Source of the DNA: Parietichytrium sp. I65-24A
Taxonomy: Eukaryota > Sar > Bigyra > Thraustochytrida > Thraustochytriidae
DNA length: 64,000 bases
Direction of reading: 5' to 3'
NCBI GenBank assembly: GCA_012862575.1
Contig: BLSF01000063.1
Location: forward strand, 124,001-188,000
In this document: positions 1,130 through 24,177 of the stretch, one piece after another
How the letters are laid out: the number at the start of each line of letters is the position of its first letter
Position numbering within the stretch: the stretch's first letter is position 1
Position numbers and translations under genes: made by a program
Notes under the pieces: model-generated
Database searches by the model: none
Told to the model about the DNA's origin: nothing
Seen by the model: the letters and a program-made list of their open reading frames with translations, nothing else

Positions 1130-3328
1130 ATGGGGGATGATAGGAATTTGGAGATGACGGATAGAAACGCACTCCGTGGGCATGAGGATAAGGATACAGG
1201 CGCTCAAGAGCACTGGGACAGAGACTATATTGACCAGCCTGGACGGCCCCACTCCGAGCATTTTGAAGATCTTCTAGAGGAAGACGATGAAGACTATGAC
1301 GACGACAGCGATGTGGAGGACCGTCACCTAGAAGATTTAGAGAACGCGTCTCTGTGCATGAAACTCTACGGAAGCTGCAAAATGTCTTGCCGGTCCCTTC
1401 GTTGGTACGCCAGGACCAGCGGGAGAGCGAAAAAGCCTGGCAGACTCTTGCACAGAGACAACGCGTTCAATCAGTGCACTGGACGCCTGCACGTCAGCCA
1501 GCGAGCCAGTCGCAAGACACAGGGTGAAATTTTGTCACTCTATGGCGATGATTGGTTTCACGTAGTCCTAAGCTGGCCCACTTGGCAACTCGTGCTCATC
1601 ATGCTTACCATCTACACGCTAAATCTTCTCATTTTTGGAGGGGTTTATGTAGCCATTGATCGTCCTGGACAGGACTGTGGTCTCGCGGGCTCTGTTGAAG
1701 AAGGCATCAGCTACCAGACCGCCTTCGCTTTTAGTCTCATAACCTCTTCCACCATAGGCTACGGGTTTCCCGCTTCTGGGGACCCCTTCTTCCACACTTG
1801 TCCGGAACTCGTGGCGGTGGTGTACTTGCAGGTCGTGGTATCCCTGTTAATCAACGCCCTTGTCGTGGGTCTCGTCCTGCAGCGTCTCGGTCGTGCCGAT
1901 AACCGATCCCACCAGGTTCTCTTCAGCGATAAGGCATGCATTCGTTGCATTCACGGCCACTTTTATTTTATGTTTCAAGTGTATGATCTAGACCGACGCC
2001 ATCCGGTGGTGGAGGCCCATGTTCGCTGCTATGCGGCCTTCCACGAGACGGATGGGACAAACACTGTGCACTTTCAGACCCGGTACATGCGACTCCAAAA
2101 CCCCAATGACGAGCTTGGCGGAGTTCTCTTCCTCAGTGTGCCGTGCACTGTGGTCCACTGCATCGATCAATGGAGCCCGTTGATGCCTCCAAAGGAATCT
2201 CGCGCGAGTTGGGAAAACTCGAACGACAATTTTGTGCACAGCTCGTCCAACAGGTATATGTTTCCATCCCTCGTCCTTCGCGAAGCAGACTCGGAGTGTG
2301 GTAATCGAAATGGGGCGTCTTGTCCGGTATGTGGAGAGGCTTTTCCGACGGACCAGCATCTGCTTCGTCACATTCGTTACATGCAATGGGAAGAGAAGCT
2401 TAACGGCATCACGCCAATGCTAAACAAGATGATGCTCTCAAACCCGCTTGACTCAATTGACGACTTTGCAGAGACAACCGACGAAAGATACTTGCCCGAC
2501 GCGACCAAGCACGCCTTTGATGCTGCGGAACAATCCGCCTTTCACACATTGCCTGAGACTGACGGGAACATAAACACCATAAGGGAGTCTCTCTCAGAGC
2601 GCAAAGAGGACGACAGAGATCACATTCTCACCCCAAAGAGATCCAAGTCCCATCGCGAGAGGGGCTCCATGCGCTCTCAAAACAACGCTAGTATCAACTC
2701 ACCGGCCCGGGAAAAGTCCGTCCACACTGGCAACCCGACGAGAATCAACCGCTTGCTCAAGTACTACGCGGACATTGCTCTCCCGATTGCTCATCAGGAT
2801 GTGGACATGAACCTATTGCCGTCTGAGGTTCAGGTGGTCCCAGACAGGGATCCGGACAGAAAGAGAAGGAACACCAAGGATGTATTCACTCTGTTCGAAG
2901 ACATGGAGCGCGAGAAAGGCTTGCGAGCTCGCCGTGACTCCTCCTCCTCTGTGCCGTCCTCGATGCACATGGATGCAGCCTCCATGGCGACAGAAAAGGA
3001 TGCCGATTCCACAATGCCGCATCCAACCACTACAAAGTACAGGGCTAAAACCAAGCAGGTCGACGAGTTTCGAACTGCCATCGAAGATCACGTTGAGTCC
3101 TCAGGGATTGAGATTATCGTCCTTGTTGAAGGGATTGAGGCTCGGTCGTCCAACACCTTTCAAGCAAGACACTCTTATACCGTCGACGACATCGAGTTCA
3201 ACAAGTTCTTTGCGCCGTGCATGCGCGTTTCCCCGAGTGGGCATGCACAGGTTAATCTCAACTCGTTTCACCAGATGGTCCCAGTTCCGTCTTACGTCTC
3301 AGAAGCCATCGTTCAGAGCCATACTTGA
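1130..3328 (+). CDS. Inward-rectifier-type K+ channel (Kir) with split cytoplasmic domain
   Basis: A 732-residue potassium channel subunit. An acidic N-terminus (about 44-70) is followed by a slide-helix-like segment, M1 (about 145-175), a pore helix with selectivity filter TIGYG (208-212) and M2 (about 226-250). Cysteines 183 and 224 flank the pore, as the conserved extracellular pair does in Kir channels. Asn242 appears to align with the M2 rectification-controller site (Asp in strongly, Asn in weakly rectifying Kir), which suggests weak rectification. The cytoplasmic Kir fold begins at 264 (LFSDKACIR, EAHVR) and runs to HCIDQWSPL (343-351). It resumes only at 658-722 (VLVEGIEA, FQARHSY, NLNSFH). 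The roughly 300 residues between are low-complexity and include a Cys2-His2-like cluster (C398, C401, H410, H414). It should act as a tetramer in a membrane; which membrane is not evident. The ATG at 1130 is the first in frame; Met9 is the alternative. Confidence 0.9.
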   Translation: MGDDRNLEMTDRNALRGHEDKDTGAQEHWDRDYIDQPGRPHSEHFEDLLEEDDEDYDDDSDVEDRHLEDLENASLCMKLYGSCKMSCRSLRWYARTSGRAKKPGRLLHRDNAFNQCTGRLHVSQRASRKTQGEILSLYGDDWFHVVLSWPTWQLVLIMLTIYTLNLLIFGGVYVAIDRPGQDCGLAGSVEEGISYQTAFAFSLITSSTIGYGFPASGDPFFHTCPELVAVVYLQVVVSLLINALVVGLVLQRLGRADNRSHQVLFSDKACIRCIHGHFYFMFQVYDLDRRHPVVEAHVRCYAAFHETDGTNTVHFQTRYMRLQNPNDELGGVLFLSVPCTVVHCIDQWSPLMPPKESRASWENSNDNFVHSSSNRYMFPSLVLREADSECGNRNGASCPVCGEAFPTDQHLLRHIRYMQWEEKLNGITPMLNKMMLSNPLDSIDDFAETTDERYLPDATKHAFDAAEQSAFHTLPETDGNINTIRESLSERKEDDRDHILTPKRSKSHRERGSMRSQNNASINSPAREKSVHTGNPTRINRLLKYYADIALPIAHQDVDMNLLPSEVQVVPDRDPDRKRRNTKDVFTLFEDMEREKGLRARRDSSSSVPSSMHMDAASMATEKDADSTMPHPTTTKYRAKTKQVDEFRTAIEDHVESSGIEIIVLVEGIEARSSNTFQARHSYTVDDIEFNKFFAPCMRVSPSGHAQVNLNSFHQMVPVPSYVSEAIVQSHT

Positions 3329-6600: not shown

Positions 6601-9600
6601 CAATTTCAACCTTCTGGGCCACAAGAGTATCGGTCCAATTTTCATACTCCGTATAATCTAGAGCAAACGGGGGCTCATGATATGCTTCCTCGTTTTCGTG
6701 AGAGGTCTCGCAGGAACTGCCGTCTTCATCTCCTGTACTCGTTGAAAAGTCAGATTCGGTGCAATCGTCTGGAACGGAGTCTGGTCGAAAGGCTTCCGGG
6801 GGCCACCATTCCTCATGAGGATCGCTGTGCGGCACTCCGCCAAGAAAGCCTTCGCCTTCGTGGTCTTTGTTCCGCGCATCTACAATCGAGAGAACACGCG
6901 TTGGACCATCGGCATGCACCCCGACTGTGATATGAGGCAAAGCGGCGCACGCATTTGAGGCCTGCAAACGGTCCAGCTCAAAGTCTCCGAGACGCACAGG
7001 CGTACTCTTGGATAAATCGGCCACTGAAACTGTCTGGTCCCACAACATGCTCCATACTCCTTTAAAAAAGTTGACAGCTCTTCCCGACACAGAACTGTTC
7101 TGGGCGGCTCCTTTCCAAGTATTCCCACCAACACTTGCCTTGCTTGCAAGAGATTCCACAACGAGCATGCGTGGCAGCGAAAGATCATCCCAGGTGTACG
7201 GACAGCTGTGGTAAGGGAGCAACACCTGCTGAGTCTGTGCCGATGCTCCTTTCTGTAAGATTACGACATCCAAGTTCAAATAACGTAAATACTCTACCCG
7301 TTAGTTTCTGTCTCACCTTTCTCGGCCAACACTAGCAAGCCTCCCATCCCCCCCCCCCAGCTGTTCCACTGTTGGAACAAAGTGCGCCATTGACCTCCAT
7401 TATTAAAAATCTCTAGGCAACGGTTGCAAACGCAACATGCACTCCAATTTCAAGATTAATATACCACGCTTGTGAATCCCAGTCTTGGTCAAAAGGCATC
7501 AGATAGGGGCAAACTTTGCGTGGTTTTGGCTCTTCTCACTCGAGAATTGTGCAAATGTTGGCGTCGCGGAGTCGTCACAAGAAAGAACGCCCCCGCAACT
7601 CCCAATTCACTGAATACGATCTCTCACGCTTGTGAATCTCAATCCTGGTCAAAGGCAACGGAAAGAGGCAAACTTTTGCGTGAATCAGCCATCAACTGTG
7701 CAAAAGCTGAGCGGCAGAAACCTCATCTAACACGGGGCTTCCGCTGCATCGTAATTGCAATTGTCTATCTTTCACGCTTGTGAATCTCGTCTCTGGTCAA
7801 AAGGCATAGTGACGAGGCAAACTTTTACGTGATGTCACCCTACTTTTTCTCGATGGCTCGGTTAAAAAAAATTACGTGCGGGGATTGTTCCGAGCTCTTC
7901 TTTCCATCGCTAGTGACGATTTCCATACTCAGGATCCCAGCGCGCCCAACACCACCAAACCTTTTTCTCAATGTCCCCTCAATAGTTATATCATAAAACG
8001 TACCTGTTGTAGCCTCAAAGTCTGTAGAGACAAATTGTCAATCCTGTATGGTGGAAGCGCGGCAAGTTCTGGATGAAAAGTGATGAGAATGGTGCTGCTA
8101 TTGTCTGCGGCTTTGTCAAGAGAGACATCGACCCGCAATATGTACACCGCGTGAGTGTGCTCGTTTCGAAGACGAACGTGATACTCCCCAATGTGGTCTA
8201 TGGAAAACCCGCCACTCCAGATCCAACCATACTCGTCAAAGCGAACACAAATTTCGCGAGGTGCGTTGAGGTCCCACCAGTGAAATGGAGTTTTCTCTCC
8301 CGGTCGAATGCTTAGTGCAGCCTCTGAAGCACTCAAGATGGATCCAGACTCACTTCCCGAGCTACCGTTTGTCAAATAGCTTCCTCGCAGGCTGGAGAGC
8401 TTTGTAAAAAGATGCCCCAGCCCGAGGAACCCGCCGCCACCCGAGAGAGCATAGCCAGTGAATTGTCTTTGTTTGACCTTGAGCGTACGCCCTAGACCAT
8501 TAATCAAGACGAACCTTGGCGTCAAAGTGATCACCTTAGTACGTCGAAACCTGCCCTCCGCGACAGATATAGAGACCCCCAGCACGAATACTTGTCGCGG
8601 AAGATCACTTTTCACGTTCCACTGCTGTTTGAGCTCGATCGAGCCTGCAGTACCAGCAGAGTCTAGCCCCATGGGCGGAGACCACGCCGAGTCGGCCGTT
8701 TTCACGCAAATGCGCCCCTTTTTTCGGGCAAAGTCCGTGTAAGACAACATTAAGGGATCGGAAGAACGTCGATCACCTGCCAGTGTGCTTGTATCGTCCA
8801 AGAGGTCTAACAGGCCACCCGGCGCACTTTGCTGGCCGGCAAAACCTCTCCTGTAAAGAAATCGCTCACCAAGCTTCTGGCGCATTCTGAGCCTTCTCAT
8901 AACAGCCATCGCTTCATTCTGCCCAGCAGCAATGTGTCCGCCGAAGCTTTCTGCCCAAGACGCAGCGGTACGAGATGCCGAACGGACAAGCAGATGCAAA
9001 TCGGAAGAATTAACGATCCAGTACGGAACAAAGACGACGACTTTGCGAGTCCCGCCAGGTAGATGCTCTATCTCGACGCAGACGCTGAGTGATCTTCGAT
9101 TCGCGTCTTTGAGCTCAATTGTTTTCTGAGTAATAACTCGCTCTCCTGAGCCCGAGCCGATAGCCGACCATCTGCATTTCTGCCACTTAGCGCTTGAAGA
9201 AGTTTTCTTTTTCAGACTTCTTGACCGCTTCAAGTGTTTTGGGGAACTTTCTGCGCCCTCAGGGTCCCCGTCCCCTTCCTCCTTTCCAGCTGCATGGTGC
9301 AAGTCCAAACGGGGAACACCTTCCAAGCGCAGCACTGAGCTCCAGTCGAAACCGGCTAGGCGTATAGTCAGTGAAAGCTCCGCCTCGGGGTCGACCCCCT
9401 GCCAGCGGAGCGTGCCCCCCACGTGCAGCTGACCATCGGCGGCACTAGAGCCGCTTGTGGTGAGCGATCGCAAACGGTAAGTAACGGGATTGGCAAGCAA
9501 ATTTGAGAGCAGCAGTGGTGATTCAAAACTCAAGAGACGTAGAGACGTGCCGGACGGAATGGACCTCAAGGATTTCTGCCGACTTCCGAGCCTCCTCTTG

Positions 9601-21158: not shown

Positions 21159-23580
21159 GCCAACAGAAACACGGTCTCTGTCGCCGTCCGCACTCTCTCG
21201 TTGGAAGGATCGGGGTCTGGATCTGTATGATCTGTATGGGATTGCGCTTCGACGCGCACGAGGGGGTTCCGCAAAGCTCTTCCTTTGGTGCAGAGAACCG
21301 GCGCCCGGTTCCAGAGGTGCTGCGGGTATGCGGCGCGTGACGGGCTGCGTTCGCCGCGGAGGAAATGGGTTCCGGTGGCGGAGTGGGCGCTGTGCTGCGG
21401 ATGATGTGCGTCTCTGTTGTCTCTGTTGTCTCTAAAGGCTGTGCGTCTGGAAGCACTAGTGGAGGCAGCTGATTTCAAGACATTTCAAGTAAATTCAAGG
21501 CAATCCAAGGATCGGAGATCAAGATACTTCAATACTAAAGTACGGAAAGTCAAGGTCGAATCAATGAATTGTGGTAAAGAGCGAATAAGACTGTGGGACC
21601 GTAAGTGAGGGTAGGGAGTCTAGGGAGAGAGTGAGCAGAGAGCAGAGTCCAAAAGGGTCAACTAAGGTGCATTATGGAGCCATGTTGTTGTGACATGTTG
21701 TGACTGTGAATCAGATTCACGTGTCCCACCACCCATCCATCCCACGCAAGCAAGAGAGTCAGAGCAGTCTAGTCAGAGCCGTCTAGTCAGAGCCTTCCTT
21801 GGTCCCACTTCCAAGACCTACTTTAAGAAACAAATAACAAGATATAGCAACATGGTCATCAAATGTGCGACTTGTGCGACCAGCGGTATTAAGCAGCGGT
21901 GTGGCGCGAAGCTATCAACTTGAAGATTACGGGTTGGTAAAATGGGCTCGCAAATGTGACCAACGTGGTACTTCATTTCCTTGTCTTTCTATGTTCAGCG
22001 GTCAGGCTCTACCTCGGGCCTTGCTGACCGTGACTCTGCTTCTAGCTCAAGGCTTTTCTTTTGTGCGATTCGGACATCTGCGGTGCTGCAAAAAGTTGAA
22101 TTTTGAACTTTTTCATTCCCGCCTTTTTCATTCAGATTGACGAGGGATGATATCAAAGTGTTCGACTCCGGTAAAACCATGACAAGTGCAAAAGCAAGAA
22201 TGGTCGTGTCTGAGCCACATTCACAATGTAAATGTTTGAGCCCACTGTGAAAACGGTTACATGCACTCATCCCTATTCAGCCCGGGCCCACACTATTCAG
22301 CTAGGGACTGACCGTGAGTGCCTTGATTTCTGAATGTTTGAAAAGGTGGCGCCATGAATCCCGTGATCTCGTGAGGCTCGGGCTAACTCGGGAGAAGCAT
22401 CAATCGACGGCCAAAGGTGGCTACCACGAATAATGGTCATGTCATGTCAGGTCGGTGAGCCTGAAAGCACTGAATCGAATAGATTCGTTACAGCATGTAA
22501 ACCCAATAGACTAGCACTGAGAGTGAGAACCAAGCAACCATTGCTGTAAAGCACTTTCGGGACGGGGCAACCTGAACACCTCTCTATTGCTCTCTATCTC
22601 TGGCCCCCTCTAGCCCCTGGGACACACAACGTGAACCAAGACCGTTCGAATGCAGTGGGAGTACCGGAAAGACACTGAGTGCTGAGTGCCGGTTTGTGCT
22701 AAATTAATGTAAACATTGAATTCAGACAGACCAGGCAATGAATCCACAACTCTCTTTTCTGACAGTGACATTGTTTTTCTGAATTCTGTTTTTATTTTAA
22801 TCCTCTCTTACTTGATCTCTGCTGGATGACCAAAATGGCGATGTGCTGCCCGATGGCCCTTCGGAGACAAAGTCTGGCACGCGAGTGTCTCTCTGGATGA
22901 ATGACCCTTTGGACTAAGTCTTTACTGGATTAGAGAAAGGGTTGCACGGATGGTCAAAGATGGGGGGCCCATTTGTTTTTTTAAAAAAAGGTGGCATCAA
23001 CAACGAAACTAACGAACGTAGGTTGGGCAGGATTGGAAACCCAAAACCATTTGCTCGCTAGCGGTCATTCCGACTTGCTTTTGCCAATACCTACCTGCGT
23101 CCGTGCTGTTTCTGGATGACTGTGAGCCCATCGCTCCAGGTACTGTACCGGTAAATTCGGAGTGGTGGCGTTTTTGCTTCCAGTGCCGCTCGTCCACGCA
23201 TTCGCTGACAGGCAGGGCGAATACCGGCACCCTTCTGTGTTGAACGAGTGCATGCTCCTTTTGATTAGGGGCTCAGGTTGAGATTGTGCTCCAGACCAGA
23301 GGCATTGGTTGTATAATTCAACAGCACATCCAACCCTGCAAGGAATCTCATATCTCAAAGTTCCTGGCTCAAGCGAGCCCAAAACTTGTAAACCAACGCC
23401 CGCTCACAGTCACAAGTGACCTGCAAAAGCGCTACACCGGCCGAGGCAGGGCGCTACAAGGTCTTGCATTCCAAGGAGGCAGGCTTCGCTCGGGCCGCGC
23501 AGCTTGTTGGTGCAGATCTCCAATCGAATCCAAACGGGAAAATTCGACGTCTGGCCTCTCCGGAGCTCCTTGCCAAGAAA

Positions 23581-24177
23581 ATGCAGTCAGTGTATCAGAT
23601 CGCAGTGCTTTGCGGACTCGTTGCCGCTTTGAGTGTGCGAGAGGTCAGCGGCAGTGACTCGTGTATCAACACCTGCTATGGCATCTGTGTTTCTTCCGGC
23701 GATTGCAGCTTCCCGGGGTGCTATTGCGTGAGCACGACCGAGTACTCGCGATGCAACAACCTTTGCCTGGACTCAACGATGAATCTGACGCAATGCGTTC
23801 ACACTGACGGCTGCAAGTGGATTGGAGACGACTGTGAGTCACCATGCAAGTACAAGTCCCTTGGCGATGGAACTTGTGACGACTCCTGTAACTCGGAAGA
23901 GTGCGAGTATGATGCTGGTGACTGCGAAGCTCCAGCGGAGGCTGAACTCGCTTTCACAAGTTTTGGAGAAGACACCCGCTGCCTTTACAAGAGCAAGGCA
24001 AAGTCGAAGTACTTCACTGCGACTAGCGCAGACTCTGTCGAGGCTTGCACAGCTCTTTGCACGGACGAAAGCTGCAAGGCCGTGGAGTATATCTCTGCTT
24101 CGAGCGTGTGCAGGCTCTGGAAGAAGACTCCAACCTCAAAAGCAAAGTCTGGCCATGAGTGCATTTTGAAAGTGTAA
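23581..24177 (+). CDS. Small secreted cysteine-rich protein with LNR and PAN/apple-like domains
   Basis: A 198-residue protein. Residues 1-24 form a signal peptide (hydrophobic IAVLCGLVAALSV), so it should be secreted. Residues 25-88 carry many closely spaced cysteines. Residues 89-115 match a Lin-12/Notch repeat: the cysteine spacing and the EYDAGDC end are the Ca2+-binding signature. Residues 134-194 (CLYKSKAKSKYF, ACTALC, CRLWKK, HEC) resemble a PAN/apple-type adhesion fold. Both modules occur in extracellular proteins, so a role in the cell wall, in adhesion or as a protease inhibitor is possible but unproven. The frame is open upstream to 23416, but the ATG at 23581 sits in AAAATG context and immediately precedes the signal peptide. 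Confidence 0.8.
   Translation: MQSVYQIAVLCGLVAALSVREVSGSDSCINTCYGICVSSGDCSFPGCYCVSTTEYSRCNNLCLDSTMNLTQCVHTDGCKWIGDDCESPCKYKSLGDGTCDDSCNSEECEYDAGDCEAPAEAELAFTSFGEDTRCLYKSKAKSKYFTATSADSVEACTALCTDESCKAVEYISASSVCRLWKKTPTSKAKSGHECILKV

Follow-up and report, generated by a model that had tools for sequence, protein, structure and literature searches.

Three tandem hairpins in a VPS13 intron of Parietichytrium sp. I65-24A: probable box H/ACA snoRNAs with a predicted large-subunit rRNA target

THE LOCUS

The window analysed here is a stretch of 64000 nt from the thraustochytrid Parietichytrium sp. I65-24A (contig BLSF01000063.1, positions 124,001 to 188,000), taken from an assembly of 42.5 Mb in 172 contigs (GCA_012862575.1); all positions below are those of the window unless another contig is named. 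Its minus strand carries a VPS13 gene with the intron listed in Table 1. The open frames on the two sides of this intron end and begin in phase, and its splice signals are AACAG/GTACGT and TTACAG/AAAGG (slash at the junction). The upstream exon encodes the Pfam domains VPS13_N and VPS13_VAB, and the downstream exon matches VPS13_C weakly, below its cut-off (E 0.021). Within the intron lie three repeated units which, when read on the minus strand, are in the sense orientation of the VPS13 pre-mRNA.

At 7348-7379, on the 3′ side of the last unit (copy C), the same intron also has 11 consecutive C's and then a short, perfect inverted repeat, TGTTCCACTGTTGGAACA. The neighbouring gene, at 1133-3325, codes for an inward-rectifier potassium channel (Pfam IRK, IRK_C), and farther away a Notch-type LNR domain (Pfam PF00066, E 4.1e-05) is encoded by a reading frame at 23491-24177.

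Table 1. Coordinates of the host intron and of the features assigned within it
Feature	Position	Strand	Description
Host intron, VPS13 gene	7253-8003	minus	751 nt, GT-AG, phase 0
Candidate snoRNA A (with unit 3)	7694-7834	minus	5′ hairpin, hinge, 3′ hairpin, ACA, 3-nt tail; 141 nt; predicted ends
Candidate snoRNA B (with unit 2)	7545-7685	minus	layout as A; 141 nt; predicted ends; weak Rfam ceN41 match at 7545-7678
Candidate snoRNA C (unit 1)	7457-7525	minus	5′ hairpin and box ATATTA; without convincing 3′ hairpin
H-box position of A	7765-7770	minus	AGATAG; last A of ANANNA absent
H-box position of B	7617-7622	minus	AGATCG; last A of ANANNA absent
H-box position of C	7457-7462	minus	ATATTA; fits ANANNA
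ACA box of A	7697-7699	minus	immediately after 3′ hairpin 7700-7758
ACA box of B	7548-7550	minus	immediately after 3′ hairpin 7551-7610
Guide arm TTCACAA	A 7778-7784, B 7630-7636, C 7470-7476	minus	invariant in 3 of 3; predicted to pair with UGUGAA of 28S
Guide arm GTTTG	A 7818-7822, B 7669-7673, C 7510-7514	minus	invariant in 3 of 3; predicted to pair with CAAAC of 28S
Conserved apical loop	A 7794-7806, B 7646-7657, C 7486-7498	minus	12 of 13 columns invariant

CONSERVATION AND COVARIATION OF THE UNITS

Units 1, 2 and 3 (copies C, B and A, respectively) occupy 7463-7525, 7623-7685 and 7771-7834, where a sequence-only reading of the window had placed them. They are 62-64 nt long and stand head to tail at spacings of 160 and 148 nt. 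The motif TTGTGAAT-N{4,14}-TGGTCAAA is found three times in the 64-kb window, against a maximum of 0 per shuffle in 100 shuffles.

The units fold into helices of 6 and 8 pairs around an internal loop, plus an apical loop of 13 alignment columns. In the three-copy alignment, 5 of the 14 pairs show two-sided changes with pairing kept, and both stems covary. This covariation score was matched in 3 of 500 shuffles, and when the pairing partner was slid by 1 to 3 columns (six controls) the number of two-sided changes fell to 0 or 1. The sequence-only reading had pointed to two such changes, and both are borne out: a paired swap in the closing hexamer, seen at pair 2-62 (C-G in copy 1, T-A in copies 2 and 3), and a CCC/GGG inner stem in unit 1 that is CTC/GAG in the others, seen at pair 17-45 (again C-G in copy 1, T-A in copies 2 and 3). 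Pairs 20-42, 21-41 and 23-39 add three more. Read on the plus strand, 37 of 42 paired cells (88.1%) do pair; of the five that do not, four lie in the upper helix (19-43, A.A in copies 1 and 2; 20-42, A.A in copy 2; 22-40, T.T in copy 3) and the fifth is 7-57, C.A in copy 3.

Of the 18 internal-loop columns 17 are invariant, and of the 13 apical-loop columns 12; in the upper helix the figure is 4 of 16. For five of six spacer comparisons (p 0.28 to 0.97) there is no recognisable likeness; the exception is one block common to spacers 1 and 2 (p 0.028; minus-strand letters TTTGCACA). Taken together, the paired covariation, the near-fixed loops and the diverged spacers mean that the units are islands selected for pairing as well as for the letters of their loops. 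The covariation thus supports the earlier proposal of a structured intron RNA in which two stems combine with an internal and an apical loop that are both conserved.

BOX H/ACA LAYOUT ON THE MINUS STRAND

Box H/ACA RNAs have the layout hairpin, hinge, hairpin, tail (described in excerpts of PMC8307265, PMC3542256, PMC2613932 and PMC2780460), and by the rule stated in the excerpts of PMC3542256 and PMC2613932, 14-16 nt separate the target uridine from the H or ACA box downstream of it. On the minus strand, one nucleotide separates each unit from a downstream trinucleotide, ATA, AGA and AGA in copies 1, 2 and 3, which puts an A-N-A box 14 nt past the top of the pocket in all three copies, as counted on the sequence. 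In A and B a hinge of 13 nt leads to a 3′ hairpin that closes with a gap of 0 on an ACA, the ACA being held unpaired. The site-to-box distance of this 3′ hairpin is 14 nt in A (from our scanner) and about 12 nt in B (by hand count). In copy C, folding found neither a clean 3′ hairpin nor an ACA box. At the H-box positions, C fits ANANNA, whereas A and B retain its first two A's and lack the third; this imperfection, like the missing 3′ hairpin of C, counts against an H/ACA identity.

We conclude that the three units are very probably the 5′ hairpins of box H/ACA snoRNAs, arranged in tandem on the minus strand of the VPS13 intron. Pocketed H/ACA guides are already known as a kind of RNA, of which the copies in the VPS13 intron would be new members, unusual in standing three to an intron. 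Two of them, A and B, would have both hairpins, and C is perhaps a single-hairpin or decayed one, with the pocket in common and with differing 3′ halves.

The choice of strand rests on this layout, which appears on the minus strand, and not on folding. The units alone fold better on the plus strand than on the minus, and folding leaves the strand unsettled. The wobbles disagree as well: G.T at 20-42 in copy 1 speaks for plus, and C.A at pair 7-57 of copy 3 becomes G.U on minus. The sequence-only reading, which could match the units to no H/ACA consensus, had read the plus strand; it is the minus (sense) strand that shows the H/ACA layout.

Our own H/ACA scanner gives the two-hairpin layout for A alone, with 1 of 60 shuffles equally good, and finds no layout on the plus strand; we think that two adjacent upper-stem mismatches caused B and C to be missed. 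Left to fold freely, full-length A (-40.2 kcal/mol) does not take the H/ACA fold, whose two hairpins sum to about -36.7 kcal/mol; for full-length B the free fold (-39.8 kcal/mol) and its two hairpins (-39.7 kcal/mol) are about equal. In sets of 200 shuffles, those folding as well were 2 (A), 37 (B) and 10 (C hairpin) on the minus strand, where B does not exceed its shuffles in stability; on the plus strand, A had 1 such shuffle and B 60.

RFAM SCANS

No Rfam family reaches its gathering cut-off anywhere in the 64000 bases of the window. A permissive scan of 7280-8000 returns, below cut-off, just the H/ACA family ceN41 and one unrelated lncRNA region. The ceN41 match lies on the minus strand over copy B and, with 20.8 bits, falls far short of the cut-off of 50 (E 0.27 and 0.11). 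For copy A scanned alone (7686-7845), an E limit of 10 brings up no H/ACA family, and two unrelated sRNAs lie below cut-off. The search of Rfam, which the sequence-only reading had proposed as a check, places the units in no family at cut-off and yields one weak H/ACA match, on the minus strand over B. Ribozyme families are absent at gathering level in the window and at E up to 10 over 7280-8000, which leaves the self-cleaving motif suggested earlier without support.

PREDICTED TARGET IN LARGE-SUBUNIT rRNA

The strands of the pocket on minus are UUCACAA and GUUUG, and the substrate expected from them is UGUGAA-UN-CAAAC (6 + 5 bp). This pocket appears to fit the 28S site equivalent to yeast 25S Psi2735, an assignment of which we are slightly less sure than of the class, because it rests on the 28S of other organisms.

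Yeast 25S Um2724, Um2729 and Psi2735 are tabulated in the excerpt of PMC8307265, which gives Psi2735 as guided by snR189 and common to human, and snR189 as additionally guiding 18S Psi466; the main text of PMC8351944 has neither 2735 nor snR189. The sequence CAGTGTGAATACAAACC is carried by the primer Cg28S_F2 (in the excerpt of PMC8527467) and by a transcript labelled senescence-associated protein (in the excerpt of PMC5327576), which from its letters we read as probable 28S. In the excerpted transcript letters TTTTCAGTGTGAATACAAACC the U's match the spacing of Um2724, Um2729 and Psi2735 in one register, so that Psi2735 corresponds to the U between the two guide arms. A count from the peptidyl transferase centre agrees with this placement.

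Among the 69 uridines in the 251 nt available of this 28S-like transcript, the best for the pocket is the Psi2735 equivalent, with 11 bp, and the runner-up has 7. A further 50 nt of 28S offer at best 7 pairs, and 398 nt of the organism's own small-subunit (SSU) rRNA hold no target. Shuffled pockets reached 11 pairs in 0 of 20000 cases at the site and in 125 of 20000 anywhere in 699 nt. The match requires that the C and A at the top of the pocket be stacked on the upper stem. We set aside a first register, with both left in the pocket, which had no target in the rRNA stretches tested. Its genome matches with at most one mismatch number 77 (42 forward, 35 reverse), against 12 and 11 for a reversed-pattern control; none is on contig C61, and the one on contig C16 is far from the rRNA piece there.

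Pattern searches of the genome for its own 28S found none, the single place returned (L146) being not rRNA-like by eye. The 28S pattern had 0 matches in viral contigs and a single place in bacterial genomes (L147), where cmscan detects no rRNA. The organism's own SSU is present as 3′ pieces alone. One, which holds no target for the pocket (L136, 1-2676), is at the end of contig C16; the SSU 3′ end stops at the contig end, the 5′ part is absent, and the sequence upstream resembles by eye a Ty1/copia-type retrotransposon. The second piece, also truncated, is on the minus strand of contig C61 (L137, 6735-7111), with no LSU or 5.8S by cmscan in 9.5 kb, and is an rDNA fragment outside any array.

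THE APICAL LOOP AND A POSSIBLE ALTERNATIVE RNA ELEMENT

The apical loop varies about as little as the guide arms do, and the excess of invariant columns over the stem (Fisher p 0.0005) is to be read with the caution that columns are not independent. Such conservation is not expected of an H/ACA RNA, judging by the trypanosomatid orthologues in the excerpt of PMC2613932. Pairing is conceivable between UGCCUUUUG in the loop and CAAAAGG(G)CA, a stretch of the excerpted 28S-like transcript that lies upstream of the target U by 33 nt. The best energy of the loop against 79 nt around the site is -10.1 kcal/mol, equalled by 90 of 1000 shuffled loops, and against the whole 251 nt it is -10.4 kcal/mol, equalled by 609 of 1000; neither is significant. 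That the loop is a second, accessory guide, with each hairpin gripping the rRNA at two points, seems quite improbable, and we know of no H/ACA RNA with an apical loop in that role.

The fixed loop speaks for a different account, in which the units are some other, undescribed structured RNA, or a cis-acting element of the intron that serves, for instance, splicing or RNA stability. Its internal and apical loops would then be binding sites for a protein or ligand, and the rRNA match and the boxes would have arisen by chance. The lack of an Rfam family at gathering level and the better folding of the plus strand of the units also suit such an element. It does not lead one to expect the box spacing, the ACA tails or the equal lengths of A and B, nor a guide pairing of 11 bp at a known pseudouridine, and we regard it as unlikely. 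Box H/ACA snoRNAs remain our preferred reading of the units.

SEARCH FOR FURTHER COPIES

DNA and pattern searches of the whole genome upheld no copy beyond the three in the VPS13 intron, the whole-genome counts being lower bounds. A covariance model of the units recovers in the window those three alone, the next best hit scoring 12.6 bits (E 0.52). In viral contigs a loose form of the motif has at least 120 stretches; among the 80 of these 120 that were scored with the covariance model the best E was 6.1, and none of the 80 is a copy. Five chance-like genome matches were scored as well (L002, L009, L010, L148 and L149), of which L149 alone appeared, at 15.5 bits (E 0.019 for 15199 bases). We rejected it: both arms are there and possibly a short lower stem, but to the eye an upper stem and an A-N-A at 14 nt are missing. 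L002, also read by eye, was not upheld as a copy.

The suggestion of a small mobile element becomes unlikely with no copy upheld outside the intron in these searches. Three head-to-tail copies at similar spacings could also come from simple tandem duplication of DNA, or from a small mobile element that has no function as RNA, but with the spacers diverged almost beyond recognition while the units are not, the stem changes compensated and no copy upheld elsewhere, we consider this very improbable indeed.

PROPOSED FUNCTION

If the units are H/ACA hairpins, trimming of the spliced VPS13 intron would leave the snoRNAs, and these would bind the pseudouridine synthase complex of Cbf5/dyskerin with Nhp2, Nop10 and Gar1. 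The pocket of the 5′ hairpin would then hold UGUGAA-UN-CAAAC of the large-subunit rRNA through 6 + 5 pairs, and the U at the equivalent of yeast 25S 2735 would become pseudouridine. The basis for this proposal is the structure, the covariation, the conserved arms, the box spacing and the complementarity to published 28S; from these we infer expression, processing, protein binding, modification and an own 28S that bears the target sequence.

In this way a structured RNA that seemed to be unknown becomes a candidate guide whose named rRNA position can be tested, and a single intron is seen to keep the same pocket three times while the 3′ halves diverge. Should the apical loop contact the rRNA a second time, or bind a protein, it would add to what is known of how guides find their sites.

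COMPARISON WITH KNOWN SYSTEMS

The nearest functional likeness is to yeast snR189 and its counterparts, as H/ACA RNAs for the equivalent 25S/28S Psi2735 site (excerpt of PMC8307265). The likeness of the units to snR189 is one of predicted site and class; Rfam gave no gathering-level match for them. According to the same excerpt snR189 guides 18S Psi466 too. The VPS13 intron has three units with one and the same pocket.

Rfam RF01631, the Caenorhabditis H/ACA snoRNA ceN41, shares its two-hairpin outline with the minus strand at 7545-7678; with its score of 20.8 bits where the cut-off is 50, and with copy A giving no match, this is a likeness of class and not evidence of descent. The single-hairpin H/AGA RNAs of trypanosomatids (excerpt of PMC2613932) have a pocketed hairpin with an A-G-A box 13-16 nt from the site, a form that copy C could fit. 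They differ from A and B, which have a second hairpin and an ACA, and from all the units in that here the apical loop is conserved.

The rice intronic snoRNA gene clusters, which we cite from a reference entry in PMC2780460, resemble the VPS13 intron in having several snoRNAs per intron; in the VPS13 intron, by contrast, the copies have one pocket in common and differ in their 3′ halves.
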